Program-made: the position numbers and the translations under genes
The notes under the pieces: generated by a model
What the model was told of the DNA's origin: nothing
The model's database searches: none
Seen by the model: the letters and a program-made list of their open reading frames with translations, nothing else
DNA from: Parachryseolinea silvisoli
Lineage (GTDB): Bacteria; Bacteroidota; Bacteroidia; Cytophagales; Cyclobacteriaceae
Direction of reading: 5' to 3'
Assembly (NCBI RefSeq): GCF_021190955.1
Contig: NZ_JAIOAO010000001.1
Coordinates: 372,001 to 436,000 of the forward strand
Length of the DNA: 64,000 bases
Shown: positions 7,684 through 23,742 of the stretch, piece by piece
Layout: each line of letters opens with the position of its first letter
Numbering within the stretch: the first letter of the stretch is position 1

Positions 7684-8925
7684 TTAGTCCTTAGCATCTG
7701 TCTTTCTATCGATCCGATAGAGTCTGCCTTCGTCTGTGACAGCGTACAACGCATTATCAGTACCCTGGGTGATGTCGCGGAAGCGTTGCCCTTCGGATGC
7801 CAGCAGCCTTTCTTCGCCTACAACCCGATTGTCGTCAATTACCAGACGAATAATATGCTTCCCGCTCAATGAGCTAAGGAAGAGATTGTTCTTCCATTCC
7901 GGTACGCGATCGCCTTTGTAGAACGTGATGCCGCTGGGCGATATCACGGGATCCCAGTAGTATACAGGCTGTTCCATGCCGTCTTTTTGCTGGATGCCGT
8001 CACCAATGGTTTCGCCGCTATACTCTATACCATAGGTGATCGTAGGCCAGCCGTAGTTGGCACCCGCGCGTACGCGGTTCAACTCGTCGCCACCACGGGG
8101 TCCGTGTTCAGCCTGCCACAAATCACCGGTTTCAGGATGCAGCGCGATGCCCTGCGGGTTTCGATGTCCGATACTATATAGCTCGGGTAGTGCTCCATTG
8201 CCACTGAATGTCGGATTGCCAGACGCGGGTTGACCGTCTGTCGTGATGCGGATGATCTTTCCCAGAGCCGCTTCTACCGATTGTGCCAACGGCCGTGTCG
8301 GCAGAACAGAACGCTCGCCGGTACTTATAAACAAGTTGCCTGAACGATCGAATATCACGCGGCCACCATAGTGCAAATCGCTCGGGTATGCAGGGTTAGC
8401 GCGGTATATTACGGTTGCATTTTCAATGCTCTTCTCGTCATCGGCCAGCCGGCCTTTTGCTACTGCAGTAAGTGTACCACCCCCTACGTTTTCTGAGAAG
8501 GCCCAATATACCATTCTGTTAGAGGCAAACTGCGGATCGATACATAGTCCTAACAACCCTCCCTGCCCTGCAGCGTTAACCGCCGGGATGCCAGTGATGG
8601 CACTGCTTACAGTACCAGTAGTGGTAACAATGCGCATGTTACCTTCCTTCTCGGTTATCAACAAACGTCCGTCGGGCAGGCTGGTGACGCCCCAGGGGGC
8701 TTCCAGATTGGAGGTAACGACGCGTGATTCATAATCAGTAGTGGTGATCACGCCATCAATCCGCGTTTGACCTTCGAACGCAGGTTCGTAGTCTGTATTG
8801 GCTGGAAGAGTCTCTACTGGTGGTCCGGTTTGGTTACCGTTGCCGTCTCCATCATCATCGTCCGAACAGCTCAACACTATAGCCGACATGGCGGCCAGTA
8901 TAAAAAGATAATTTTTGATTTTCAT
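7684..8925 (-). CDS. PQQ-dependent sugar dehydrogenase, lipoprotein
   Basis: This 413-residue protein belongs to the glucose/sorbosone dehydrogenase beta-propeller family (Asd/Yli type). The N-terminus is a lipoprotein signal ending in the lipobox IVLSC, followed by an acidic linker (DDDDGDGN). Conserved signatures include APWGVTSLPDGRLLITEKEG, GGRVIFD, HRNPQGIALHP and EHGPRGGDELN. Soluble family members oxidise aldose sugars with PQQ and calcium and pass electrons to the respiratory chain. The ATG at 8925 was chosen because it starts the signal peptide. The export of the protein to the cell envelope is predicted from the lipobox. Confidence 0.92.
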   Translation of the reverse strand: MKIKNYLFILAAMSAIVLSCSDDDDGDGNGNQTGPPVETLPANTDYEPAFEGQTRIDGVITTTDYESRVVTSNLEAPWGVTSLPDGRLLITEKEGNMRIVTTTGTVSSAITGIPAVNAAGQGGLLGLCIDPQFASNRMVYWAFSENVGGGTLTAVAKGRLADDEKSIENATVIYRANPAYPSDLHYGGRVIFDRSGNLFISTGERSVLPTRPLAQSVEAALGKIIRITTDGQPASGNPTFSGNGALPELYSIGHRNPQGIALHPETGDLWQAEHGPRGGDELNRVRAGANYGWPTITYGIEYSGETIGDGIQQKDGMEQPVYYWDPVISPSGITFYKGDRVPEWKNNLFLSSLSGKHIIRLVIDDNRVVGEERLLASEGQRFRDITQGTDNALYAVTDEGRLYRIDRKTDAKD

Positions 8926-9038
8926 ACGGTGATCAATTACGTTATGTTTTCTCACGGATAAAAAACCATACCGTTCTTAGGGGGATTCCCTGCGATGAAT
9001 GAACAAAATCTACACATGGGAATACGTGCCACATAAAC

Positions 9039-11141: not shown

Positions 11142-11171
11142 AAAAAAAAAGCACCGTCGCCGGTGCCTTTT
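11142..11171. terminator. Terminator between the transporter and M13 genes
   Basis: A compact GCACCG/CGGTGC stem with a TCGC loop has nine A residues on the left and a T-run on the right. It ends the minus-strand transcript of the catabolic locus and isolates it from the M13 gene. Confidence 0.8.
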
Positions 11172-11230
11172 TCCTTAACCTCAATCAAAAATCCCGTGTC
11201 ATAATGCAAATCGTGCCACGGTATATCCTG

Positions 11231-12325
11231 TTATGCCGTTACTACGGCCTTTTTGTCTTCAATGGGTTTACGATGCCACCACGATGCAAGGATGGAGCCG
11301 GTAACGTTCATGAGCGGACCGAAGATGGCGGGTGCCAGGCCTACCGTCGCGGCTTTTCCCATTTCTTTGGCAATGCCCGAGGCCAGGCCTCCGTTTTGCA
11401 TTCCTACTTCGATGGCGATGGTGCGACAGTCCTGTTCGTTCATCCGAAAGAGACGCGCAGACCAGTAACCCAGCAGGTAACCCATGGTATTGTGAATCAG
11501 CGATGACACGATCAGCAACAAACCTATAGCCATAAGGTTGTCGCGGCCGTTCGCCGTAATGATGAGAATGATAAAGGCAATACCGGCCATAGACACCAAC
11601 GGCATGGCTTTGTCCAGCCACGCTGTCTTGCCCCGGAAAAAGCGGTTGAAAAGCAAACCCGCCACAACCGGTAGGATGACGATCTTTGTGATGTCCCACA
11701 TCATCTTGGTGACCTCTATTTCCACGAACTGTCCGGCCAGCAGCTTCATGAGCAGTGGCATAAGGATCGGCGCGAGAAAGGTAGAAACCGTGGTGAGAGT
11801 AATAGACAGGGCCAGGTTGGCTTTTGCCAGATACGAAATGACATTAGAGGCCATGCCACAGGGCGAGCAACCAATCAGAATCACGCCGGCCGCAATCTCG
11901 GGCGGAAAGTCGAAAACGTTTGCGAGTGTAAAGCCCAAAAGCGGCATGATAGTGAAGTGATTCACCGTGCCGATAATTACGCCTTTGGGCATTTTGACAA
12001 CCCCCACAAAGTCTTTAACGCTCATTTCTGTGCCCATGCCGAACATAATGATCTGCAGCAGCGGTGTAAAGAGATTGTCGAGCCGGAAACCGTTGACTGA
12101 GATGAAGTACTGCGGAAAGTACATAGACGTCGTCACGGCCGCCAGAATCATGATGGTGTAGGAGAACCCCTTCAATGCTTCGTAGCCACGGACACCGATA
12201 GCCAGCGACAGAAAGAACAGGACAAATAGGATACCCGAGGCGGGTATCTGGTCCGCGAGGACCAGGGAAACCGCCGCTATCAGGAACGCAGCCGCGGCAT
12301 ATAGTAAGAGCTTGTGTTTTGTCAT
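11231..12325 (-). CDS. BASS-family (bile acid:sodium symporter) transporter
   Basis: This 364-residue protein has about ten membrane segments. The signature segments of the BASS fold are present: the sodium-site region MGTEMSVKDF, GCSPCGMASNVISYLAKAN and EVGMQNGGLASGIA. Characterised bacterial and plastid family members move bile acids, pantoate/ketopantoate or pyruvate with sodium. It is the last gene of the catabolic locus, 92 bases after the RraA-type gene, which suggests it carries a product of the exported enzymes into the cytoplasm. The substrate assignment is an inference from context. Confidence 0.9.
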   Translation of the reverse strand: MTKHKLLLYAAAAFLIAAVSLVLADQIPASGILFVLFFLSLAIGVRGYEALKGFSYTIMILAAVTTSMYFPQYFISVNGFRLDNLFTPLLQIIMFGMGTEMSVKDFVGVVKMPKGVIIGTVNHFTIMPLLGFTLANVFDFPPEIAAGVILIGCSPCGMASNVISYLAKANLALSITLTTVSTFLAPILMPLLMKLLAGQFVEIEVTKMMWDITKIVILPVVAGLLFNRFFRGKTAWLDKAMPLVSMAGIAFIILIITANGRDNLMAIGLLLIVSSLIHNTMGYLLGYWSARLFRMNEQDCRTIAIEVGMQNGGLASGIAKEMGKAATVGLAPAIFGPLMNVTGSILASWWHRKPIEDKKAVVTA

Positions 12326-12417
12326 GGTTGTTCAGGTCAGGAAAAAGACCTCCACGGTCCGTAGCCCACAGCTCCCGGCCAAACCTCCGTGAACCATGAA
12401 CTACAGACCCTGGATGT

Positions 12418-13347
12418 CTACCACGTTCTGTTTTTCATATACTCGTCGAGCTCGGCTCGTTTCATGGGAATCTCGTTCGGGTGCTTATCGAGCCATTGCA
12501 GAAAAGCTTCTTTCACCTTGTCTGTCCATTGGTTGTCGATCTCACCGGGGGTGAACTTCTGCTCGCGCAGCATGTCAAAAGCAAACTTGTCACGCAGCTG
12601 CAGGAACTCGGCTGTCACGACAACCTTCTGAGCCAGGTGAGCGGGTATAAAAATTACACCTTCGTCGCGCGCCAGTACCAGGTCGCCCGGCAGCACCATT
12701 ACCTTGCCGATGCGAATGGGCGTGTTGAGCCCCATCAACACCGAGTTTTCGAGGAAGGTCGGATCCCACTCGCGCACCCAGGCATTAAAGCCTTTGATTC
12801 TCGCGAGGCCTTCGGGATCGCGGGCGGAGCTGTTAAATACCACGCCGTTACCCGACTTGGCATAGATCGAGTTACCGAGGTTGTCACCGATCAGCGTGCC
12901 TGCTTCAATCTTGCCAAATCCATCGGCCACATAGATGTCACCTTTCGAAAGTTTGTCGATGGGCCAGGAGTTGGTGTTGCCGATGCGTCCGTCTTTTTTG
13001 CCGCGGTCTTTAATATTCTTCTCTACGTCCGGGCGGCTGGGCATAAACATCGCCGTGTAGGCGCGCCCGGCCATGGGTTGGCTGCTGTTCAATACTTTAA
13101 AGTTACCCTCAAACTGCGAGGTATAGCCTTCGTTGCGCAGCACGAGCCAGGCTTCTTCGATAGACACGTTTTTGGCGCGGGCCACGAGCTCATCGGGAAT
13201 GCGGGGGCGGCCATCAGGAAACCGCTCCCCTTTCCATTCCGATGTAAGAAAGATGAGCTCCTCTTTCGGTATTGTTTGAGCCTGCACAGAGGCAGTAAAA
13301 GCTCCCGCCACGAACAGCAGGCCCAGTATCACGTTCTTTTTTTTCAT
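12418..13347 (-). CDS. Exported RraA / HMG-CHA aldolase-like protein
   Basis: This 309-residue protein has a Sec signal peptide (MKKKNVILGLLFVAGAFTASVQA) and then an RraA-fold domain. The GDNLGNSIYAKSGNGVVFNSSARD region matches the substrate- and metal-binding segment of 4-hydroxy-4-methyl-2-oxoglutarate aldolases, including the Arg-Asp pair. Related enzymes cleave 4-hydroxy-2-oxo acids or decarboxylate oxaloacetate. RraA-type proteins are normally cytoplasmic, so the export signal is unusual. It starts 13 bases after the amidohydrolase stop codon. Its C-terminal extension of about 60 residues (helical, charged) is not part of the core fold. The ATG at 13347 starts the signal peptide. Confidence 0.82.
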   Translation of the reverse strand: MKKKNVILGLLFVAGAFTASVQAQTIPKEELIFLTSEWKGERFPDGRPRIPDELVARAKNVSIEEAWLVLRNEGYTSQFEGNFKVLNSSQPMAGRAYTAMFMPSRPDVEKNIKDRGKKDGRIGNTNSWPIDKLSKGDIYVADGFGKIEAGTLIGDNLGNSIYAKSGNGVVFNSSARDPEGLARIKGFNAWVREWDPTFLENSVLMGLNTPIRIGKVMVLPGDLVLARDEGVIFIPAHLAQKVVVTAEFLQLRDKFAFDMLREQKFTPGEIDNQWTDKVKEAFLQWLDKHPNEIPMKRAELDEYMKNRTW

Positions 13348-13360
13348 GTGAGCAGTGGCA

Positions 13361-14635
13361 TTATTTCTTGTTGGCGAAGGCGGCCGCATTGGGGTCGGTC
13401 GTCCACGACGGTTTTGATATACCGTTCAGGTCGTATACGATCTCGCCTGCGCGCAGCGTCAGCTCGCACTCCAGCTTCTTTGTCCCTTCCAATTTATATC
13501 CTTTCGAGTCGACAAATCCATACTTGCCCGTCAGCATGCTGAATACGGCTACGTCCGCTACCGCACCGGCGGTAAGATGACCCAGGTCATCGCGATGAAT
13601 GACCGATGCCGGCGACCACGTAGAAGCTTTGAACACGGCTTGCAGCGGCATGCCCAGGTTGACAAACTTTGACATGACATTGAGCTGATCTTTCATACCC
13701 GCATTCATGCTGGCGGTGTGAATGTCCGTGCTGATGGTGGTGGGATAGAATCCTTGCTTGATGGCCGGTATAGCCTGTGAGAACATAAAGCTGCCGCCTC
13801 CGTGGCCTACGTCGAAGACAATGCCGCGCTTGATGGCTTCCTGCACATATGGAAAGGGATTGCCCTGGTCGTCCATGACCGGGCCACGACCTGTGAGACG
13901 AGCATAGGTATGGGTGAAGATGTCGCCGGGACGCAGGTGCGTCAGCAGCAGGTCGCGCAGGGGCAGCGGCGGCACATGGCCACCGAAATCGATCATGACG
14001 GGCACGTTGGCAATCTTGCCGGCCTCTACGGCACGATCGACCGGGTCCCACTCAGTGCCCGAGAAATGTGCTACTTTAACGCCGACGATCTCGCTGTTCT
14101 GACGTACGACCATGGCGGTCATGCGGCTGTCCATGTCAGCCAGGTTCTGCTCGTACGGGCCACCGCGCATGCCTTCGCCGACGATGTTGAGGAACGACAG
14201 CACACGTGTTTTCGAATGCTCGATAGTCTGGCGTTTGAAGGTGCTGAACGTTTTCCAACCGGCACCACCGGCATCCACGACCGTCGTTACACCGACACGG
14301 AACGTAAAGCCGTCGGGCGGAAGCGCCTCGAAGCCGTCGCTCAGGTAGTGGTCGGGTTGTGTGCCGAAGAAGTTGTGTGAATGTATGTCGATCAAGCCAG
14401 GCGTTACATACAGGCCTTTGGCATCGACCACCAGGGTAGCTTTTTTGGGGTCTATATTTTTAGCGACGAGCGCGATCTTGTCGTCTTTGATGGCGACGTC
14501 CATGACATCATCGATGTTGTTTTTGGCGTCGACTACGTGGCCGCCTTTCAGCAGCAGGGTGTACTCCTGGGCCAGGGCCGCACCGGCACACAGCAGGAGC
14601 AGGCAAAGGAGATACAGTTTACGAGTTACATACAT
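13361..14635 (-). CDS. Exported amidohydrolase/deacetylase-type metallohydrolase
   Basis: This 424-residue enzyme has a Sec signal peptide with cleavage expected after ALA at residue 22. The amidohydrolase-superfamily metal ligands can be followed: HSH at residues 85-87, the probable bridging lysine in VGVKVAH, the histidines in FGGHVPP and FTHTYAR, and the aspartate in STDIHT. It matches the EF_0837-like amidohydrolase/deacetylase subgroup, which frequently sits beside SelA/DgaE-like PLP enzymes, as here. Family members deacylate N-acyl or hydrolyse cyclic amide substrates; the true substrate is unknown. It lies between the RidA and RraA genes. Confidence 0.88.
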   Translation of the reverse strand: MYVTRKLYLLCLLLLCAGAALAQEYTLLLKGGHVVDAKNNIDDVMDVAIKDDKIALVAKNIDPKKATLVVDAKGLYVTPGLIDIHSHNFFGTQPDHYLSDGFEALPPDGFTFRVGVTTVVDAGGAGWKTFSTFKRQTIEHSKTRVLSFLNIVGEGMRGGPYEQNLADMDSRMTAMVVRQNSEIVGVKVAHFSGTEWDPVDRAVEAGKIANVPVMIDFGGHVPPLPLRDLLLTHLRPGDIFTHTYARLTGRGPVMDDQGNPFPYVQEAIKRGIVFDVGHGGGSFMFSQAIPAIKQGFYPTTISTDIHTASMNAGMKDQLNVMSKFVNLGMPLQAVFKASTWSPASVIHRDDLGHLTAGAVADVAVFSMLTGKYGFVDSKGYKLEGTKKLECELTLRAGEIVYDLNGISKPSWTTDPNAAAFANKK

Positions 14636-14758
14636 ATAGCGTAAGGTCCGTTTCGGGTGTTGGGTGTCTGGTATTTTTTCTTTACTGCAGGCATTACAAT
14701 AACGTCTGATCGATTTATTTATCCCGGTCAGCCCTGATGCGCTTCCTGTGTAAGAAGG

Positions 14759-14781
14759 CGCTGCCGGTGGTGCCGGCAGCG
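14759..14781 (-). promoter_or_regulatory. Strong intergenic hairpin between RidA and amidohydrolase genes
   Basis: A perfect nine-base stem CGCTGCCGG/CCGGCAGCG with a five-base loop follows the RidA-type gene. The minus strand has only a weak T-stretch after it, so it looks more like an attenuator or mRNA-stability hairpin inside the operon than a full terminator. Confidence 0.55.
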
Positions 14782-14788
14782 TTATCCA

Positions 14789-15250
14789 TTAAATATAGGC
14801 GATGCAATCCATCTCCACGAGCGAGTCGCCCGGTACGCCACCGTATACGGCGACCGTCGTACGTACGGGGGGCTTGTCACCGAACTTGCCTTTATAGGCC
14901 TCGTTCATAGCTTTGTAGTCATTCAGGTCGTGCAGGAACACACTTACCTTCAGTACTTTTTTCATTGAAGAACCTGCTTTGACAAGCTCTTTCTCCAGTT
15001 CGTCAAGCACGTGGAGGGTGTGGGCAGTGATATCGCCATCGAAGTGGGCGCCTTTGCCTGCCACAAACACCAGGTTACCGAACTTGGTAGAACCGGAAAA
15101 CAACGGTACATCCTGATCATCCTTCACGACATTGAATACCTCTTTCTCCGGTGTGGCGTCGCTCTTCGCGTTCGCTACCATGCCGAGACCTACGACGCCG
15201 GCAGCGGATGTAAAGATTTTCTTCAGGATCGATCTTCTTTGTTCTTTCAT
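14789..15250 (-). CDS. RidA (YjgF/YER057c/UK114) family protein with Tat-type signal
   Basis: This is a 153-residue protein. Residues 1-28 form a twin-arginine signal (RRSILKK followed by a hydrophobic stretch and ANA), and the rest is a single RidA domain. The conserved Arg that binds the substrate carboxylate is Arg130 (in PPVRTTV), followed by the VEMDCIAYI ending. RidA proteins hydrolyse reactive enamine/imine intermediates released by PLP enzymes to 2-oxo acids and ammonia. A Tat-exported RidA is unusual. It starts 53 bases downstream of the PLP enzyme gene, which fits processing of that enzyme's product. Confidence 0.9.
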   Translation of the reverse strand: MKEQRRSILKKIFTSAAGVVGLGMVANAKSDATPEKEVFNVVKDDQDVPLFSGSTKFGNLVFVAGKGAHFDGDITAHTLHVLDELEKELVKAGSSMKKVLKVSVFLHDLNDYKAMNEAYKGKFGDKPPVRTTVAVYGGVPGDSLVEMDCIAYI

Positions 15251-15303
15251 GGCTGTTTATACAAATAGTGAAACAATTATTTTTGGGGTGTCTTCAATCT
15301 CAT

Positions 15304-16533
15304 TTATGCCACTGCTTTGCTTAGCTCTTCCTTCAAGCGTGTCGCCACGATCTTCTCCTGTCCGGGCTTCAACATAAACACCGTCACCGATACACTGTTG
15401 GCCTCGCTGCCGCCGGCAATCTCAATCGACGGGCTGGCGTTGCGCAGGTTTTCTTTGAGCTTGGTACTCGTGATCTTTACCGACTCGTTCCAGGTGATGT
15501 GCAGTGTCGGCGTGTGATTGCCTAGCTCCGGCACCTTTACTTCCGTTGTTACGCCAGAGACGCCTTTGACCGCGCTCTGAATATGCGCGATACCTGCCTC
15601 CCACTCTTTCCATTCTTTGTCATGGTCGGCCTTGATATAGGTGTCGATGGCTACATACATACCCAAGATCTCTTCTTTGTTGATCTTAAATCCGCGGCCA
15701 ATGTTAAAGCCCCGTGGCGGCATATGCAATCGCGCAGCGGCAATAATTTCTTTTTTCCCCATCAGCAACCCCGCGCTTTGCGGGCCGCGAATGGCTTTTC
15801 CCCCGGAGATCACAACAAAGCTAAAGCCGAGGTCATTGAAACGCCAGAGGTTTGATACAGGCGGTACGTCGGCGGCAATGTCGATGGAGGTGGGAACATT
15901 ATATTTTTTACCCAGCGCCACCCATTCTTCGTGCTGGATCTTGCCGAGGTCCGATTGTATGTGCAGGAAGTGCATAAGTGCCGTGCGTTCGTTCACGGCT
16001 TTGGCCACGTCTTCGGCAGTCTCTACCCAAACGATCTTGCACCCTGTATTGGTCAGGGCGTGGTTATAAACAATATCGTGCGCCTTCTGGATGATCACTT
16101 CCGACTTCATGCCGGTGTACTCCAGGTGCGGCAGTTGCTCTACTTTCTTTACATCCATGCCGGTGAGGACGCCGGCCAGGCCCAGGGTCATGCCGGAGAA
16201 CGCGCCGGAGGTTACAACCACGGCCTCGGAGTGTACAAGCTTGGCGAGCTTCTCACCAACTTTGTCTTGTACTTCGTCCAGCATGCAAAATTCTTTGGAA
16301 GCGAAATTGATGGCGTCCATCACTTCATCGCGCATCAGCGAACCGGTCATTGCAGTATACGTACCTGCGGCATTGATGAAGGTACGTACGCCCAGCTCTT
16401 TAAATACGTCACGTTTCGGTGGGGTCTTTTGCGCAGGCGCGGCCAGCACGGAAAAAGGTGCGACGCTGCCTACGATGCCACCGATCACGGGAAAAGAAGA
16501 AAGGCGGCGAAGGAGTTCTCTACGGTTCAGCAT
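15304..16533 (-). CDS. SelA/DgaE-like PLP-dependent enzyme with Tat signal
   Basis: This 409-residue fold-type I PLP enzyme starts with a clear Tat signal: NRRELLRRL, a hydrophobic core, and an Ala-Ala-Pro end near residue 33. The mature part has the family opening INAAGTYTAMTGS (near residues 54-65), the aspartate that pairs with the pyridine ring in SIDIAAD (Asp218), and the Schiff-base lysine Lys246 in SGGKAIRGPQS. It groups with the SelA-like DgaE ammonia lyases, which dehydrate or deaminate sugar-acid phosphates or amino acids. Tat export would let the enzyme fold with PLP in the cytoplasm before crossing the membrane. It is the first enzyme gene after susCD. Confidence 0.88.
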   Translation of the reverse strand: MLNRRELLRRLSSFPVIGGIVGSVAPFSVLAAPAQKTPPKRDVFKELGVRTFINAAGTYTAMTGSLMRDEVMDAINFASKEFCMLDEVQDKVGEKLAKLVHSEAVVVTSGAFSGMTLGLAGVLTGMDVKKVEQLPHLEYTGMKSEVIIQKAHDIVYNHALTNTGCKIVWVETAEDVAKAVNERTALMHFLHIQSDLGKIQHEEWVALGKKYNVPTSIDIAADVPPVSNLWRFNDLGFSFVVISGGKAIRGPQSAGLLMGKKEIIAAARLHMPPRGFNIGRGFKINKEEILGMYVAIDTYIKADHDKEWKEWEAGIAHIQSAVKGVSGVTTEVKVPELGNHTPTLHITWNESVKITSTKLKENLRNASPSIEIAGGSEANSVSVTVFMLKPGQEKIVATRLKEELSKAVA

Positions 16534-16672: not shown

Positions 16673-16708
16673 AAAAGGGCCGGTGTGCGTGTGTGCACAC
16701 CGGCCTTT
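16673..16708 (-). terminator. Terminator-like hairpin between susD and the enzyme genes
   Basis: The stem AAAGGGCCGGTGTGC pairs with GCACACCGGCCTTT with one bulged G. On the minus strand a short T-run follows. It lies 15 bases after the susD stop codon, so most transcripts may stop here and only some continue into the enzyme genes. Confidence 0.75.
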
Positions 16709-16722
16709 ATTTTTAGGTGTTA

Positions 16723-18285
16723 TCACCGTCCGTTAACATCCCACCACACGTGGCCGTTCAGGTTATCTGTAACCCAACCGTTCTCGCTGATTTGACGCTG
16801 CACCGCCTCACTATAGGAGGTCGTGTTCAGGGTCTGCTCAGAAGTGGGATACATAAACCGCCGGATCAGTTTGTTGCCGGTGGCATTGCCGCCGTAAGTA
16901 TTCGGCGTAAGCGCCGGATAACCCAGGCGGCGATAGACGTTATACACTTCGGTTGCGTCGGGGAAGGCACCCATCCAAAACTGCGTATAGATTTGTTCCA
17001 GTTGAGAGTCCATATCGCCGGTCGTTACCAGCGGATGTGCGTCAACATAATCATCTACATCTTGTGAGCCAATGGCGCCTGCGGCACCGACAGCGATCTG
17101 CCACTGGCGCATGCCGGCGCGTATACCGTCTTCATAAAGGTCGGCCGGCGTGCCGCTATACCAGCCACGCAGGGCAGCTTCTGCCAACAGGAAGTTAACC
17201 TCCTGCGTAGTGAATATCAACTGCAAACCGGACTGCAAAAGTACCGTAGCAGGATTAGGCTCAGACAGATCGCCGAAGTTCGCGGGCGCAGAGCCGTTGA
17301 TATCATCGGCCATGCCCTGCTGAATGTCTGGATCATTGTTCGGCGTGCCGCCCACCCACACGATCGAAAGGATTGGCAGACGCGGGTCGTCATTAGCCTT
17401 TAGCGAATCGATAAAAGTCTCCTGATACTTACCCCCCTCCGGATTGGTTTTGCCGTTGGCTGCGATATAGTCGCTTTGGAACAGGCTATAGGCAATCGGA
17501 TTTCGCGTAATGGTCTGACCGGTGGCGTTATAGTTCCGTATCGCAGCGATATCGGCATCTTGCATAATCACACCGCCGGCGATGGCACGTTTCACCCACT
17601 CCTCGGCCATGCTGTTCGACACCTCGGTCAAATGCATGCCGAGGCGCAACATCAACGAGTAACCAAACTTTTTCCACTGGTCGGTGTTACCGCCGTAGAT
17701 CACGTCGGCCGCGCCAAACGAAACGTCGCTTGTGTTCAGGGCGGCAGTAGCCTCCTGCAGTTCCTTAAGCATGTCGGCATAGATTTCCGATTGGGGCGTA
17801 TACACAGGTTGATATATACCTTGAATATATCCTTGTGCACCTTGAATATACGGAATGTCACCGTACAAATCCGTGAGACGGGAGTAGCAGAACACACGCC
17901 AGATCCGGGCGATCGACAGCTTGTTGACATTTGCCGGCTCATCTTGCACGGCATTGATCACTTCGGTGATCTCGTTAATCTGGTTCGGATAGCTGTCGGT
18001 GAATACCGACGCCGAGCGCAGTTGCTGCGCCGCCACATATTTCGAACCAAAGCCCGCTACGTCGTTGTAGCTGGTCGTGTATTGCATGTTCCCCAGCAAC
18101 AGAGAAGCGTGATTAGCCAGGACCGCTGTACCGTCATAAAGTGATTTGCTGAAGATATAATCCGGTGTGGGCGTCGAAATAGCGTTGGGATTGACATTCA
18201 CATCGCCAAAATCGTCGCAAGCGTTTACCAGCAGCATGCCAGGCAAAAGCAGCAGTGAAGCGTATTTTTTGATGAATATTTTCAT
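16723..18285 (-). CDS. SusD/RagB-family nutrient-binding outer-membrane lipoprotein
   Basis: This 520-residue lipoprotein has a lipobox (LLVNAC) and the SusD_2-type opening DVNVNPNAIS, a helix-rich tetratricopeptide-like body, and the conserved segment TTQEVNFLLAEAALRGW. It acts as a cell-surface lid that captures nutrient for the SusC channel. The start follows the SusC stop by 19 bases, the standard pairing. The subgroup with DVNxNPN is often found with peptide or amino-acid-like ligands rather than glycans, but that is only a tendency. Confidence 0.95.
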   Translation of the reverse strand: MKIFIKKYASLLLLPGMLLVNACDDFGDVNVNPNAISTPTPDYIFSKSLYDGTAVLANHASLLLGNMQYTTSYNDVAGFGSKYVAAQQLRSASVFTDSYPNQINEITEVINAVQDEPANVNKLSIARIWRVFCYSRLTDLYGDIPYIQGAQGYIQGIYQPVYTPQSEIYADMLKELQEATAALNTSDVSFGAADVIYGGNTDQWKKFGYSLMLRLGMHLTEVSNSMAEEWVKRAIAGGVIMQDADIAAIRNYNATGQTITRNPIAYSLFQSDYIAANGKTNPEGGKYQETFIDSLKANDDPRLPILSIVWVGGTPNNDPDIQQGMADDINGSAPANFGDLSEPNPATVLLQSGLQLIFTTQEVNFLLAEAALRGWYSGTPADLYEDGIRAGMRQWQIAVGAAGAIGSQDVDDYVDAHPLVTTGDMDSQLEQIYTQFWMGAFPDATEVYNVYRRLGYPALTPNTYGGNATGNKLIRRFMYPTSEQTLNTTSYSEAVQRQISENGWVTDNLNGHVWWDVNGR

Positions 18286-18304: not shown

Positions 18305-21300
18305 TTAGAACTTAACGATCAGGTTGACGCCATAAGACCGGGTGCGGGGCAAGCCGATCGATTCGATGCCTTGCGCAGCGCCGTTAGTCAAACTTTGCTC
18401 AGGATCGAAGTTATCCGTCTTCTTATACAGGATCGCCAGGTTGCGGCCTACCAGCGACAAGGTCGCCGACTGTATCTTAACGAACTTCAATTTCTCTACC
18501 GGCAGGCGGTATGACAGGATTACTTGGCGCAGTTTAACAAAGCTGGCATCGTGTACAAACATTTCTGTATACCGGTTCACGCTGTTATAGTATTGCGAAC
18601 GCAGGTTGGCTACTGCAATGGTCCGTTCGTGCGGGGTACCTTCAGGTGTAACGCCTTTGAGCACCAGGCCATTTTCACGACCTTCCAGGGTCATTTTATG
18701 GAGCCCCAGACGTGCGGCATATACTTCTGTTACCGAGAAGACGTCGTGACCGAATTTACCGTCGAGCAGTACGTTCAGGCTGAAGTTCTTGTAACGGAAA
18801 TCGTTGGTCAAACCCATCGTAATAGGTGGTACACCGTTGCCAAGCTTTTGGTTGATATCCGTCTGGCCGGGTAGGTTGGCAGTCATATCGAAGATTGGCA
18901 CACCTTGTGCGTTGCGGAGCATACGGTAGCCGTAGATGCCGCCATAAGGTTGGCCGACATTATTGCGGATGGTTGCGTTACCGTTCGCTGACGCACCAAT
19001 TTGCAGCGTTTGAATACCGTCGGCGAGTTTCAACACTTCGCTCTTGTTGTAGGCAAAGTTATAGCTCATATCCCAGGTAAAGGCGCCAACTTTTGCGGGG
19101 GTGGCGTTGACCAACACTTCAATACCGCGGTTGCTCAACTCGCCGGAGTTCAGCACAGCGTTATTATAACCCGTGGCCAGGGAGACAGGCACCGATACGA
19201 TGTCGTCTGTAGAACGGCGATCGTATAACGCCACGTCGAAGCCGAGGCGGTTGTCGAGGATTTGCACATTGAAGCCAACTTCTGTAGTAGTAGACGTGAA
19301 CGGCTTGAGCTGTGCGTTAGTGATGTTCTTGACACCTAGCTGTGCTTCTGTCACGTTCTGCAACGGTACAGTGCTGCTCGGTACTGCGCTATAGGTCAGG
19401 TTGATCTGATATGGATCAGGGGAACCACCACCCACTTGCGCCCACGAAGCGCGGAACTTCACGAGATTAAATGCGGTCGGCATTGTGATCGCGTCCGACA
19501 ATACGAAGCTCGCACCAACGCTGGGATAAAAGATGCCGTTGTCCTTTGGGCTGAGCGTCGAGAACCAATCCTGGCGTGTGGTGGCCGTTAGGAAGAGGTA
19601 ACCCTTATAGTCCAAATCGATGGATCCAAACACCGAGTTCGTTTCTGAGCGGCCATCAAACGGTATTACTGACGACTGGTTCAGGTTGGTGAAGGCATAA
19701 AAGTAGGGTTGTGTAAATTCGGTGCCTCTCATGTCTAAACGCTTTTCTACAGCGCGACGGGTATTGAAACCACCCAGCAAGGACATGCCAATGCTTTCGC
19801 TGAGCTGGGCCTTATAGCTCAGCGTCACCATCGAGTTGGTTTCTGATACCTCCGCTTCCATGCCGGTATATTGTCCCCTCAGCTGGTACAGCGTACCGGT
19901 AGGCAGGATGTGCTTAAAATCGTACGAATAGAAGTCCCGTGTAATAATAGCCTTCGCAGTCAAATTCTTGAGGATATCATAGGATACCGATGCCTGGCCG
20001 ATGAAACGGTTTTTATCATCGTTTTCCTTTACTTTGTTGATAACAAAATATCCGTTAGTAGCGATGGGTGCATCGTTCCATGCCAGTTCGTTGTTGTTCG
20101 CGTCATAACCTGGATCGAGCCAACGTACGTCTACAGTGTTCGCTACCTCGTAGGGAGTCCAGTTGGGGTTGCCCAGCGCGTCGCCCGCGTTAGGACGATT
20201 CTGGCCTACTTCACGTGTATATTGTGCGACAGCCTCTACCCGCAGTTTATCGCTTAACTTACCGCTAAGGTTCAGGTTGGCTGTTTTACGGTTATATTTC
20301 GTATTGGGCAAGATGCTCTTCGAATCGAGATCGGAAAGCGACAATCGATAGAGGATTGCTTCGTTACCCCCTGAGAAAGCTAGGGTGTTCGTGAATGTCT
20401 TACCGGTTTCGTAGAAATTCTTCAGGTTGTCCTTCTGTGCTGAATATGGGTGATTCTTGCCATCTGCAGCCACGTAGTTGGTATTACCGTCAATGCGGGC
20501 GCCAAACGAGCGGCGGCCACTGCTAATGGCTTCTGCCTGGGTAGTAGGCATGACACCGCCTTCACCCTGGCCATATTCATATTGCCAATCGGGGAATACT
20601 GCCACGCGGTCGAGAGTATAGGTCGAGTTATATTCTACACCAATGCCTTTGCGGGCCGTCCCTTTCTTTGTTGTGATAAGGATAACACCGTTGGAACCAC
20701 GTGAGCCGTAGAGGGCGCCAGCCGTACCGCCTTTCAGTACCGTGATGGATTCAATATCATCGGGATTGATCGCGGCAATACCATCACCACGATCGATGTT
20801 CGTTGCCAGGTTACCGTTAGCACCGTTAGGTGACGTTGAACCTCCAGGTACAGAGTTGTCGATCGGCATACCGTTAATTACATACAGCGGCTGACTGTTA
20901 CCTGTGAGTGATCCGTTACCACGGATCAGAACACGGCTGGAACCACCAGGTCCAGTGGAAGCACCGGTGACATTCAGACCGGCGATCTTACCACTCAACG
21001 AATTGGCCACGTTTACTTCGCGGGCTTGTGTGAACTCCTCGCCTTTTACTTCGGTTACAGAATATCCCAGGGCATTTTTATCTTTCTCAATACCAAGGGC
21101 CGTTACGACCACTTCACCAAGGGTGGATAATTCCACCTGCATGGTGACGTCCACAACCGTCTGCGCCGAGGTGAAGGGGACCTCCTGTGTGGCATAGCCG
21201 ATGAACGATAATACCAGCACCCCGCCTTCATCGGGTACGGACAGTGTATATTTACCGTTGCCGTCAGTAGTAGTACCAATGGTGGTGCCTTTTACAACAA

Positions 21301-21823
21301 CGTTTACGCCCGGCATGGTCGTGTTATCATCGCCGGAGATAACGGTACCGGTAAGCGTGAAGTTAGGCGCTACGGCAGTTGTCGTTACCGCTGCTAATGC
21401 AGTAGCCGCTACCGGCTGCGCGTTTTCGAATGGTGTGGCCGGTTCTTCTCCGGCAAAGATGCTGAACTGCTTTTTATTGATCTTCTTGAACTGAAGCTTG
21501 CAGTGATCAAGCATTTTCTCCAACGTCTCTTCCGGCGTCAGATTTTCTGACAACAGCGCGGCAGAAACGGTCTTGCCCTCTAGCAGACCTGCGCGGTATG
21601 CAAAGCGGATATTGTAACGTTTTTTTAAGTCATTCAATGCTTCTTTCAGGCTAACCTGCTGGTCATCTACAAACCCTGGGTCTGAGTTGACCTGCATACC
21701 CCGCAGCGCTCGCGCGCTTGCAGTAGAAGCAAACTGCTGTGCAAAGCTGGCGGGGACGGAGGCTCCCACCATGTACATCAGTAGCGTACCCTTAGCCAGT
21801 AAGCTGGAGTTAAAATGTTTCAT
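18305..21823 (-). CDS. SusC/RagA-family TonB-linked outer-membrane transporter with STN domain
   Basis: This 1172-residue protein has a signal peptide, then an STN (secretin/TonB N-terminal) domain at about residues 57-127. Next come a carboxypeptidase-like beta sandwich (about 155-230), the plug domain with LIRGNGSLTGNSQPLYVINGMP-like residues, and a large beta-barrel ending in Phe. The STN domain in SusC proteins signals to a FecR anti-sigma factor, and one is encoded just upstream. Import is powered by TonB. It is predicted to form a complex with the SusD protein encoded 19 bases downstream. Confidence 0.96.
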   Translation of the reverse strand: MKHFNSSLLAKGTLLMYMVGASVPASFAQQFASTASARALRGMQVNSDPGFVDDQQVSLKEALNDLKKRYNIRFAYRAGLLEGKTVSAALLSENLTPEETLEKMLDHCKLQFKKINKKQFSIFAGEEPATPFENAQPVAATALAAVTTTAVAPNFTLTGTVISGDDNTTMPGVNVVVKGTTIGTTTDGNGKYTLSVPDEGGVLVLSFIGYATQEVPFTSAQTVVDVTMQVELSTLGEVVVTALGIEKDKNALGYSVTEVKGEEFTQAREVNVANSLSGKIAGLNVTGASTGPGGSSRVLIRGNGSLTGNSQPLYVINGMPIDNSVPGGSTSPNGANGNLATNIDRGDGIAAINPDDIESITVLKGGTAGALYGSRGSNGVILITTKKGTARKGIGVEYNSTYTLDRVAVFPDWQYEYGQGEGGVMPTTQAEAISSGRRSFGARIDGNTNYVAADGKNHPYSAQKDNLKNFYETGKTFTNTLAFSGGNEAILYRLSLSDLDSKSILPNTKYNRKTANLNLSGKLSDKLRVEAVAQYTREVGQNRPNAGDALGNPNWTPYEVANTVDVRWLDPGYDANNNELAWNDAPIATNGYFVINKVKENDDKNRFIGQASVSYDILKNLTAKAIITRDFYSYDFKHILPTGTLYQLRGQYTGMEAEVSETNSMVTLSYKAQLSESIGMSLLGGFNTRRAVEKRLDMRGTEFTQPYFYAFTNLNQSSVIPFDGRSETNSVFGSIDLDYKGYLFLTATTRQDWFSTLSPKDNGIFYPSVGASFVLSDAITMPTAFNLVKFRASWAQVGGGSPDPYQINLTYSAVPSSTVPLQNVTEAQLGVKNITNAQLKPFTSTTTEVGFNVQILDNRLGFDVALYDRRSTDDIVSVPVSLATGYNNAVLNSGELSNRGIEVLVNATPAKVGAFTWDMSYNFAYNKSEVLKLADGIQTLQIGASANGNATIRNNVGQPYGGIYGYRMLRNAQGVPIFDMTANLPGQTDINQKLGNGVPPITMGLTNDFRYKNFSLNVLLDGKFGHDVFSVTEVYAARLGLHKMTLEGRENGLVLKGVTPEGTPHERTIAVANLRSQYYNSVNRYTEMFVHDASFVKLRQVILSYRLPVEKLKFVKIQSATLSLVGRNLAILYKKTDNFDPEQSLTNGAAQGIESIGLPRTRSYGVNLIVKF

Positions 21824-21849: not shown

Positions 21850-22887
21850 TTATTTTTTCGATAGCACGATATGTTTTTCTGATTTCTGTTCTACATCCAG
21901 GTCAAGCGTTGCGGAGATGGTCGCCAGCAGCTCGGGAATACTGGATACACTGATCTCGCCTTCGATCTTTAAGTTCAGCAACTTGTCGTCTTTCACGTCT
22001 ACTTTATAGCCATGATATTGAACAAGTGTCTTCACGATGTCTTTCAGCAACGCGTCGGTGAATACAAAGTCCTGGTTGATCCACGCGATGGATTGCTGCG
22101 GTTTCTCTATTTTCTTCTTGGCGATCAGGTTTTGGTTGGCAAATTCGGCATAGTCGCCGGGTAACATAATTACGTCTGTCACGGTATCTTTTGACAGGCT
22201 GGCTAACACAACCTTTACCTTACCGGTAATAAGTGTTACGTCCGTCTTTTCAGCCTGGTCACGTACATTAAAAGAAGTACCCAATACTTCGATCTCTACA
22301 TCGCGACCATGCACCAAAAAGCGTTCCCCCTCTCGAATGTTCAACGTGTCTTTATTGATATGCTTTACATTGAAGAAGGCCTCCCCTTCGAGCCACACTT
22401 CACGAAGTGTCCCGTCAGTCCAGTTGTCCTTATAATATAGTGTCGAGTTGCCGTTTAGTGTCACCACGGAGTGATCGGGCAGCACGACCTTTGTTACCTC
22501 ATTATAGGCGGTATGTACACTTTCACGATGATCAGCGAAGAACCAGTATACAGCCGTGGCGGCGACCAGCAACGAAGCCGCTGCTGCCACTTTCATATAG
22601 AGCGGCATACTTTTAACGCGTGTTGCTGCCGGCTCCTCTTCGCGCGTAATTTCAGCTTGAATCCGGTTCCACAGCTGCTGACGGCCCATTTCGTTGGTAA
22701 AAGTGTCCTGGCTGCGGTACGCTGTAATTATCTCCACCGCCTGCGTCATAATCGCCTCCTTCTCAGGATAGATTTTGATCACTTCCTTCCAAAACACGTT
22801 AGCCTCCGGCTCGGCATTGGTCGCCCAACGCACAAACGAGTCATCTTCCAGAAAATCCGATAACGTGTACTTTTCGTATTCCTCCAT
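21850..22887 (-). CDS. FecR-family anti-sigma factor
   Basis: This 345-residue protein has a cytoplasmic N-terminal part that would bind sigma, one membrane segment at residues 98-117, a periplasmic FecR domain (about 125-230, with LPDHSVVTLNGNSTL), and a C-terminal DUF4974 domain. The DUF4974 part resembles the STN fold and is expected to contact the SusC STN domain. Its gene lies 26 bases upstream of susC and downstream of the ECF sigma gene, so signalling from the outer membrane to transcription is complete within the locus. Confidence 0.93.
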   Translation of the reverse strand: MEEYEKYTLSDFLEDDSFVRWATNAEPEANVFWKEVIKIYPEKEAIMTQAVEIITAYRSQDTFTNEMGRQQLWNRIQAEITREEEPAATRVKSMPLYMKVAAAASLLVAATAVYWFFADHRESVHTAYNEVTKVVLPDHSVVTLNGNSTLYYKDNWTDGTLREVWLEGEAFFNVKHINKDTLNIREGERFLVHGRDVEIEVLGTSFNVRDQAEKTDVTLITGKVKVVLASLSKDTVTDVIMLPGDYAEFANQNLIAKKKIEKPQQSIAWINQDFVFTDALLKDIVKTLVQYHGYKVDVKDDKLLNLKIEGEISVSSIPELLATISATLDLDVEQKSEKHIVLSKK

Positions 22888-23139: not shown

Positions 23140-23742
23140 CTATGATAAAACTGCCGGATCAGGTTTCGGCAAGCATAGGCACCAGAGAAGGCAAACCAAA
23201 TAGTGCAGCGTATCTTTCAGGTTGTCAAGGGCTTTGTACCACAGTTTATAGACTGAGTTTATATGTATCGACATGACTTCGCCAACTTCTTCATACGATA
23301 GTCCTTCATAAAACCGCAGGTACACTATTTCCTGCTGGCGAGGCGGCAGCTTACTGACGACCTCTTTAATCATGTCCTGCATATGCTGTTGCTCTTCGCG
23401 TAAGATCAACTGGTGGTCATACGAAACTTCAAACGTATAATCATAGTCGTCAGCAGCCGAAAACGAGAGCTTGGACCGGGTTTTCAGCTTTCTGAACAGC
23501 GAATGGCGCAACGCCTTATATAAATAATTCTTAACCGAGGGCGGCGTACTGAGCGTTTCGCGATTGGTCCACAACTTCACGAAAAGATCCTGTATGGTAT
23601 CTTCGATCAGTGCGACGTCACGGGTGAATTTATAACCATAGTTATTCAACCGGCGGTAGTACTCCTCGTAGAGGCGGCTATACGCATGCCATTCTCCACG
23701 TTTAAATGCGTTCCAAATACTTTGTTCCTGTTCAGCGTGCAT
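23140..23742 (-). CDS. ECF RNA polymerase sigma factor (Bacteroidetes family)
   Basis: This 200-residue sigma-70-type protein has region 2 (EDTIQDLFVKLWTNR) and region 4 (LPPRQQEIVYLRFYEGLSYEEVGEVM). The C-terminal 20 residues are unusually hydrophobic (LVCLLWCLCLP), which is uncommon for a soluble sigma factor and may tether it to the membrane. It is the first gene of the sigma/FecR/SusC/SusD cascade and would switch the locus on when its substrate docks at the SusC protein. Confidence 0.93.
   Translation of the reverse strand: MHAEQEQSIWNAFKRGEWHAYSRLYEEYYRRLNNYGYKFTRDVALIEDTIQDLFVKLWTNRETLSTPPSVKNYLYKALRHSLFRKLKTRSKLSFSAADDYDYTFEVSYDHQLILREEQQHMQDMIKEVVSKLPPRQQEIVYLRFYEGLSYEEVGEVMSIHINSVYKLWYKALDNLKDTLHYLVCLLWCLCLPKPDPAVLS

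Follow-up and report, generated by a model that had tools for sequence, protein, structure and literature searches.

In Parachryseolinea silvisoli (Bacteroidota), an operon probably encodes enzymes that break down N-acetylated 2-amino-2-deoxyaldonates in the periplasm; these compounds are oxidised amino sugars, among them N-acetylglucosaminate and its galacto isomer. The operon lies in a stretch of 64,000 nucleotides (contig NZ_JAIOAO010000001.1, positions 372,001 to 436,000), hereafter the window, whose own numbering is used below. The whole locus occupies the minus strand from 23742 to 11231, where genes for a sigma factor, FecR, SusC and SusD are followed by those for a pyridoxal phosphate (PLP) enzyme, RidA, an amidohydrolase, an RraA-like protein and a transporter of the BASS family. 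Gene content, signal motifs, synteny, co-occurrence and residue losses were computed. A preliminary description of this DNA had placed four exported enzymes and the transporter here, and the place and strand of all five were confirmed, as were their families by profile searches (Tat, twin-arginine translocation):

15304..16533, minus strand: DgaE-like PLP enzyme of fold type I, with a Tat signal (TIGR01437, 162 bits, below cut-off)
14789..15250, minus strand: RidA protein, with a Tat signal (PF01042, 69 bits)
13361..14635, minus strand: cog3964-type amidohydrolase (PRK09237), with a Sec signal (NF006689, 439 bits, above cut-off)
12418..13347, minus strand: enzyme of the RraA/HMG-aldolase fold, with a Sec signal (PF03737, 56 bits)
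11231..12325, minus strand: BASS-family transporter (PF01758, 154 bits)

The open frame of the RraA-like protein spans 13389-12418, the ATG at 13347 (MKKKNVILG) being the better start.

Each of the four enzymes begins with a recognizable export signal. By eye, the PLP enzyme (MLNRRELLRRLSSFPVIGG) carries a twin-arginine signal at residues 1 to about 32 and RidA (MKEQRRSILKKIFTSAAGVVGLG) one at residues 1 to about 28, and the signals of the amidohydrolase (MYVTRKLYLLCLLLLCAGAALAQ) and RraA (MKKKNVILGLLFVAGAFTASVQAQ) are of the Sec type. A TatC gene is present in the genome. To retrieve related loci, a scan was run with the PLP protein as sole query; its best 80 of 81 matches gave 77 distinct loci, in which one representative per protein cluster was scanned against Pfam. 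Signals in their genes were judged by one home-made rule, alike for all genes, which does not distinguish a Sec signal from a membrane segment; BASS and MFS proteins are also called Sec. RidA was assigned to Tat in 46 of 52 cases (Sec in five, none in one), the amidohydrolase to the Sec or lipoprotein class in 80 of 88, and RraA bore some signal in 26 of 27. For the PLP enzyme, the strict rule retrieved a Tat signal in 63 of 102 proteins, a low count because the rule forbids proline in the hydrophobic stretch and so undercounts such Tat signals; by motif, the figure is 97 of 102. Among the five PLP genes without the motif, that of L035 passes the first rule, those of L050, L058 and L078 seem to be truncated or to have a shifted start, and that of L073 has a long upstream frame. 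Within the same loci the rule found no signal in 2-keto-3-deoxygalactonokinase (DgoK, 0/8), KDPG aldolase (0/7) or NagB-like proteins (0/2), and one in 15 FecR proteins; proteins recognized by eye as sigma factors had none either (0/15). The remaining genes scored Tat in 32 of 571 cases and any signal in 219 of 571.

Both twin arginines are kept in 97 of the 99 PLP proteins that were aligned (380 amino acids or longer), the other two having gaps. In the main PLP clade they occur in 77 of 77 proteins, and among the first 40 positions only these and P15 (76/77) are so constant. Both arginines are likewise kept in 52 of 53 aligned RidA proteins of at least 120 amino acids, whose signal regions otherwise vary. 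Since the arginine pairs are conserved amid changing signal regions, the Tat motifs are not a product of chance. The export signals predicted earlier for all four enzymes are thus borne out in relatives by motif conservation and rule counts, and, judged from sequence, export of the enzyme set is very nearly certain.

The enzyme families also show the conserved synteny in Bacteroidota that had been anticipated. An amidohydrolase was found in 63 of the 77 PLP-anchored loci, any Rid gene in 56 (RidA in 47), RraA in 26 and BASS in 27, with BASS present in 21 of the 26 RraA loci. GDHc, a sugar-dehydrogenase-like propeller with cytochrome c, occurs in 42 loci (GDHc or GDH2 in 45), a CBM9-like protein in 24 and an SMP30-type lactonase in 13. 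DgoK was detected in eight loci, in six of them together with KDPG aldolase and an MFS protein. In these loci, the PLP enzyme and amidohydrolase bear signals where complete, and the kinase and aldolase are signal-less, which places the compartment boundary at the ATP-using step. Mutual exclusion of RraA and DgoK was considered and dropped as not significant (one locus with both, p 0.25). In L062, a lactonase fused to a Rid domain stands right before RidA-PLP-RraA-BASS; this seven-bladed fusion was recognized through Pfam at L062:3228-4793 and by similarity at L056:4972-6534 and L065:7905-9467. GH20 genes were found in five loci (four of Aquiflexum/Cognataquiflexum) and GH18 genes in two, both of Chryseolinea; as proof of chitin use they were rejected, the independent loci being too few.

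Relatives with the genes unlinked, which the preliminary description had named beforehand as speaking against it, form a minority: most loci are linked, and in 10 of the 77 the PLP gene has no amidohydrolase and no Rid gene nearby. Those ten, five acidobacterial metagenome-assembled genomes among them, would suit a view in which genuine signals send the enzymes out to scavenge or detoxify, and not to act as one pathway. We regard this as very unlikely, as the operon structure recurs in numerous genera of Bacteroidota and on a plasmid of one acidobacterium, the modules downstream differing. The plasmid, from Granulicella tundricola (L091, Acidobacteriota), encodes RraA, the PLP enzyme, RidA, a second PLP enzyme, an amidohydrolase, a lactonase and a BBE-type FAD oxidase, with signals (by eye) on all but the oxidase; it also has a beta-galactosidase-family gene, and the stretch is without an annotated cytochrome-c dehydrogenase. 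A rhizobial Phyllobacterium plasmid carries amidohydrolase, Rid and PLP genes along with ABC transporter genes, all signal-less (N-termini by eye). Both compartments thus appear to house this chemistry.

Co-occurrence was computed over a sample of 394 genomes of the phylum, eight of which have the PLP gene. A close GDHc is found in 8/8 of these and in 1/386 of the others (Fisher p 6.7e-16). The amidohydrolase occurs in 8/8 and 4/386, the latter from one genus (p 3.7e-14), and RraA in 8/8 and 16/386 (p 5.5e-11). In the seven cluster regions of the other PLP genomes, GDHc and SMP30 were each detected six times, and RraA and BASS four times each. The GDHc of the window's genome (C7:494342-496006, 58% identical) lies on another contig, unlinked to the PLP gene, and no pathway gene was recognized near it. 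In G134, GDHc is likewise unlinked to PLP and stands one gene away from a pair of PfkB-family kinase and KDPG aldolase genes. The window's genome also has a cluster of kinase, KDPG aldolase and MFS genes adjoining an altronate-dehydratase-like gene. A periplasmic cytochrome-c sugar dehydrogenase, absent from the preliminary description, is likely to catalyse the first step of the pathway.

The modelled PLP enzyme (predicted local distance difference test score, pLDDT, 88.8) has 7lc0 as its best PDB match in Foldseek (template modelling score 0.86 on the target), followed by 8t7j. It scores 125 bits with NF047797 (cut-off 600) and 162 with TIGR01437 (cut-off 385). Lys246, Asp218 and Arg280 are invariant in the alignment, K246 being present in 99/99 proteins. 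In DgaE, Phillips and co-workers placed the substrate phosphate near Arg301, Arg332 and Arg346 by manual docking, and showed that His163 protonates an intermediate whose release they call potentially cytotoxic (PMC9529869). The exported clade has Arg at these three columns in 1, 1 and 0 of 99 proteins, and the pair His162/His163 appears as HH in 0/99. A rhizobial signal-less relative has the His pair and two of the three arginines. With the phosphate-site arginines lost, a non-phosphorylated substrate would fit, and with no HH pair so would a leaked enamine, hence a need for RidA; both would be the natural reading of these losses. An O2-dependent oxidase like Cap15 (8t7j), whose released imine RidA would clear, is quite improbable. 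Cap15 fits the model no worse than DGL does, and the His pair of DGL is not kept in the exported clade, but by printed alignment it has all three DgaE arginines, which the exported clade is without, and some sister loci feed a 2-keto-3-deoxysugar kinase and aldolase. A second PLP subfamily (L055:12200-13807 and kin; about 520-570 amino acids, with a C-terminal extension) was observed in the same clusters, several times beside a DUF4440 protein.

RidA exceeds the cut-off of PF01042 and falls below that of TIGR00004 (61 vs 106); its catalytic-type arginine R130 is present in 53/53 proteins. The amidohydrolase passes NF006689 (439 vs cut-off 371). Its metal-site residues H85, H87, H242 and D304 occur in 79/79 proteins and K187 in 78/79, and position 216 is Asp in 75/79 and Glu in 4/79, where 2ogj has His. 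The nearest PDB entries are 8je0 ('Amidase') and 2ogj for the single protein, and 2ogj for the family profile. We take cog3964 to be the name of this family, with 2ogj presumably linked to Atu3266. The exported protein is predicted to be a deacetylase. A signal-bearing amidohydrolase without a PLP gene was also noted (L115:8349-9809), an arrangement seen in four genomes of one genus in the sample.

We put the aldolase step of RraA at roughly even chances. Its Arg-Asp pair (R177-D178, counted from base 13350) is invariant in 16/16 proteins. The model (pLDDT 82.6, with five models ranging down to 56.5) matches the HMG/CHA aldolase 3noj first in Foldseek, with RraAS2 (5x15) nearly level. It is somewhat doubtful, though a serious alternative, that RraA is instead a dehydratase/decarboxylase or other enzyme acting on the 2-keto-3-deoxy acid, with BASS importing another product or the 2-keto-3-deoxyaldonate itself, uncleaved. 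One RraA-like enzyme, FlDet of a Flavobacterium, acts as a 2-keto-3-deoxy-D-glucarate dehydratase/decarboxylase (PMC8563752). The scores with named aldolase models fall far short of the cut-offs, the G-D motif is variable at its Asp, and RraAS2, named as an RNase-inhibitor relative, fits the model no less closely than the aldolase. The first rank of 3noj and the invariant Arg-Asp pair argue for the aldolase, as does the reasoning that the C6-diacid reaction of FlDet has no direct aldonate counterpart. The BASS protein exceeds the cut-off of PF01758, and its nearest named kin is PanS (ketopantoate), both NF047939 (239 vs 400) and TIGR00841 scoring below cut-off. Cleavage by RraA and import of pyruvate by BASS are putative.

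RraA is also found apart from the PLP gene. Among the 38 RraA matches listed in the 394-genome sample, five lie in PLP clusters and the other 33 are covered by 30 regions, in which 26/33 directly adjoin an enolase-superfamily gene and 12/33 have BASS within two genes. A lax twin-arginine motif occurs in 30 of the 31 enolase-superfamily genes of these regions. Five were scanned, and the nearest curated models were galactonate and gluconate/galactonate dehydratases, all below cut-off. With such neighbours in 26 of 33 cases, exported RraA mostly partners a predicted producer of 2-keto-3-deoxy acids. The 30 regions yielded no Rid gene; in the regions examined, Rid genes came solely with the PLP version of RraA clusters. 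On another contig of the window's genome, L121:3282-14805 encodes a heme-c/HEAT dehydrogenase-like protein, RraA, a twin-arginine enolase-superfamily protein, SusC and SusD, a candidate second exported sugar-acid operon.

Substrate, reaction order, the activities of RraA and BASS and actual export are what we infer from the above. SusCD, controlled by the sigma factor and FecR, would take amino-sugar material into the periplasm, where the cytochrome-c sugar dehydrogenase (unlinked here) and a lactonase would convert N-acetylhexosamine to N-acetyl-hexosaminate. The exported amidohydrolase would strip the acetyl group, and the DgaE-like enzyme, delivered folded with its cofactor by Tat, would eliminate water and release an enamine, which Tat-exported RidA would turn into ammonia and a 2-keto-3-deoxyaldonate. 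Exported RraA may then cleave this by a retro-aldol reaction to pyruvate and glyceraldehyde, and BASS would take the oxo acid into the cell. In some relatives the PLP enzyme and amidohydrolase are instead followed by an MFS importer and a signal-less 2-keto-3-deoxygalactonokinase and KDPG aldolase. The order amidohydrolase, PLP lyase, RidA, RraA, BASS had been proposed before and fits as chemistry. The substrate proposed with it was an N-acylated or cyclic amino compound: the N-acylated part stands, narrowed to N-acylated 2-amino-2-deoxyaldonates, and cyclic amino compounds or dihydropyrimidines were rejected, as the partner genes seen give them no support. The operon is probably a soil bacterium's exported set for oxidised amino sugars such as those derived from chitin. 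More tentatively, at somewhat less than even odds, Bacteroidota may possess a general periplasmic, non-phosphorylative Entner-Doudoroff-like route, with a heme-c dehydrogenase, a lactonase, an exchangeable Tat enzyme, an exported RraA aldolase and BASS import. The exchangeable part would be the PLP ammonia-lyase with RidA for amino-sugar acids or the enolase-superfamily dehydratase for neutral sugar acids; the window operon would be the amino-sugar branch and L121 a candidate for the neutral one.

Several points weigh against the assignment to oxidised amino sugars. The GH20 and GH18 genes link few loci to amino sugars, and those loci cluster in the phylogeny. Neither a dehydrogenase nor a lactonase is encoded in the operon of the window. 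The 77 loci are close relatives only and related to each other, some of the ten without amidohydrolase and Rid genes lie on very short contigs, and the p values overstate independence because they take interrelated genomes as independent. The GDHc cut was chosen once a break in the scores, from 689 to 545 bits, had been seen, and at E 1e-100 the tally is 51/394. RraA is present in 16 genomes without the PLP gene and in three copies in the window's genome. Export is predicted, with signals judged by the home-made rule. As for the PLP enzyme, a lone His occurs in the DgaE His162/163 loop in 26/99 proteins, the window's included (H191), and an Arg two residues past the Arg301 position in 23/99; the mapping of Arg332/346 and His162/163 crosses lower-confidence alignment regions, and the phosphate site in DgaE itself was placed by manual docking (PMC9529869). 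Homology to the DgaE fold argues weakly for an ammonia-lyase, as the O2-dependent Cap15 is an equally close match to the model. Finally, in L042, L063 and L071 the PLP gene is accompanied by genes for MlrC, gamma-glutamyltranspeptidase, Rid and BASS, two of these loci keeping the amidohydrolase, SMP30 and GDHc, a context pointing to a different or additional substrate.

The presence of MlrC and gamma-glutamyltranspeptidase alongside the PLP enzyme in these three loci would suit an exported set that degrades N-acyl-D-amino or 3-hydroxy-D-amino acids (of the D-Ser/D-Thr type) from peptidoglycan or peptides, the amidohydrolase deacylating and the PLP enzyme deaminating. OngC, a cytoplasmic analogue, deaminates D-serine and D-threonine as well (PMC9537276). 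The sugar dehydrogenase, lactonase, CBM9 and 2-keto-3-deoxygalactonokinase partners, and the co-occurrence with GDHc across the 394 genomes, suit sugar acids better, and we consider the D-amino acid alternative unlikely.

The rest of the locus and its borders comprise the following features:

23140..23742, minus strand: ECF (extracytoplasmic function)-type sigma factor gene, the first of the locus (named by eye from sequence)
21850..22887, minus strand: FecR anti-sigma gene (PF04773 and PF16344, both above cut-off)
18305..21823, minus strand: SusC/RagA TonB-dependent transporter (TIGR04056, 625 bits, above cut-off)
16723..18285, minus strand: SusD-like outer-membrane lipoprotein (PF12771, 254 bits)
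16678..16705, minus strand: GC-rich hairpin and T-rich stretch in the 189-base gap between SusD and PLP genes (consensus match)
11142..11175, minus strand: terminator-like hairpin and T run between the BASS and M13 peptidase genes (consensus match)

A gap of 252 bases separates the sigma factor gene from that of FecR, and the intergenic gaps from SusC through BASS measure 13 to 189 bases. SusC possibly has an N-terminal signalling region, where a PF16344 match falls below cut-off. The hairpins come from a scan by terminator consensus that gave 13 terminator-like sites in 6.1 kb vs 6.5 expected; the strong one at 16678-16705 is a possible attenuator dividing susCD from the enzyme genes. The preliminary description had SusC/SusD beginning the operon and BASS ending it. 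The second part agrees with the hairpin behind BASS (11175-11142), and the first does not, with sigma/FecR lying upstream. As this hairpin follows BASS, the M13 peptidase gene and the glucose/sorbosone dehydrogenase (GSDH) gene downstream of it were rejected as operon members; in the nearest relative, L004, M13 lies ~2.5 kb beyond BASS. The GSDH gene (7684-8955, minus strand; PF07995, 421 bits) is two genes downstream of the operon and has a lipoprotein-like start. It was also rejected as the missing dehydrogenase, scoring 19.8 bits against the GDHc query vs the 58% identical GDHc of another contig.

Central sugar-acid catabolism, PLP chemistry and the clean-up of enamines by RidA are viewed as cytoplasmic activities. 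If the set works outside the inner membrane, electrons would go to the respiratory chain and the carbon would enter the cytoplasm, already cleaved, as a small oxo acid, sparing the cost of sugar import and phosphorylation. RidA would gain a physiological periplasmic task and unannotated SusCD loci a substrate class. For exported proteins of the RraA type, which annotations often call RNase regulators, it would provide an enzymatic role that can be tested. A Tat-exported PLP enzyme together with RidA had been thought perhaps undescribed. The first half is known, since PvdN and PtaA of pseudomonads are Tat-exported PLP enzymes with PLP bound (PMC6206403); for the second, a search of open-licence literature, mostly at the level of listings, found neither an exported RidA nor an exported DgaE-type pathway, and by term counts the main text of the 2015 Rid family survey does not mention periplasm or signal.

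Among known systems, the ong pathway of Pseudoalteromonas prydzensis for the catabolism of N-acetylglucosaminate (GlcNAc1A; Jiang 2022, PMC9537276) comes closest in function. By the reading given here, both share a deacetylase, a PLP deaminase, RidA, TonB-dependent uptake and a route from N-acetylglucosaminate to 2-keto-3-deoxygluconate (KDG), and its RidA, OngD, is essential with an unknown role (PMC9537276). OngB and OngC are predicted to be cytoplasmic, whereas the window enzymes carry export signals, and OngB, a D-aminoacylase-like subtype V amidohydrolase, and OngC, a fold type III PLP enzyme, belong to other families (PMC9537276, PMC12017989). PpOngB (9kb1) is a distant match of the window amidohydrolase family profile, and the portions of PMC9537276 covered do not mention RraA or BASS. 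The window set would thus work like the ong pathway while not being a member of it. PvdN and PtaA share the folded, cofactor-loaded Tat export of a PLP enzyme; they serve siderophore tailoring and not catabolism, and no exported RidA or aldolase partner is mentioned in the portions covered (PMC6206403). DgaE (7lc0) has the PLP fold and family in common and, as proposed here, elimination to a 2-keto-3-deoxy acid. It differs in its phosphorylated substrate and in the His162/163 pair and Arg301/332/346, which the exported clade does not keep. The cog3964 amidohydrolases (2ogj, EF_0837) share the PRK09237 family score and the HxH, Lys, His and Asp residues, the window enzyme differing by export and by Asp/Glu at 216 vs His in 2ogj. 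HMG/CHA aldolase has the fold and the Arg-Asp pair of the window RraA, which differs by export, N- and C-terminal additions and equivalog scores below cut-off, and FlDet has the RraA-like fold with an activity other than aldolase (PMC8563752). The enzyme families of the locus are ordinary and their predicted compartment is not; the arrangement is shared between genera and makes sense as one pathway.

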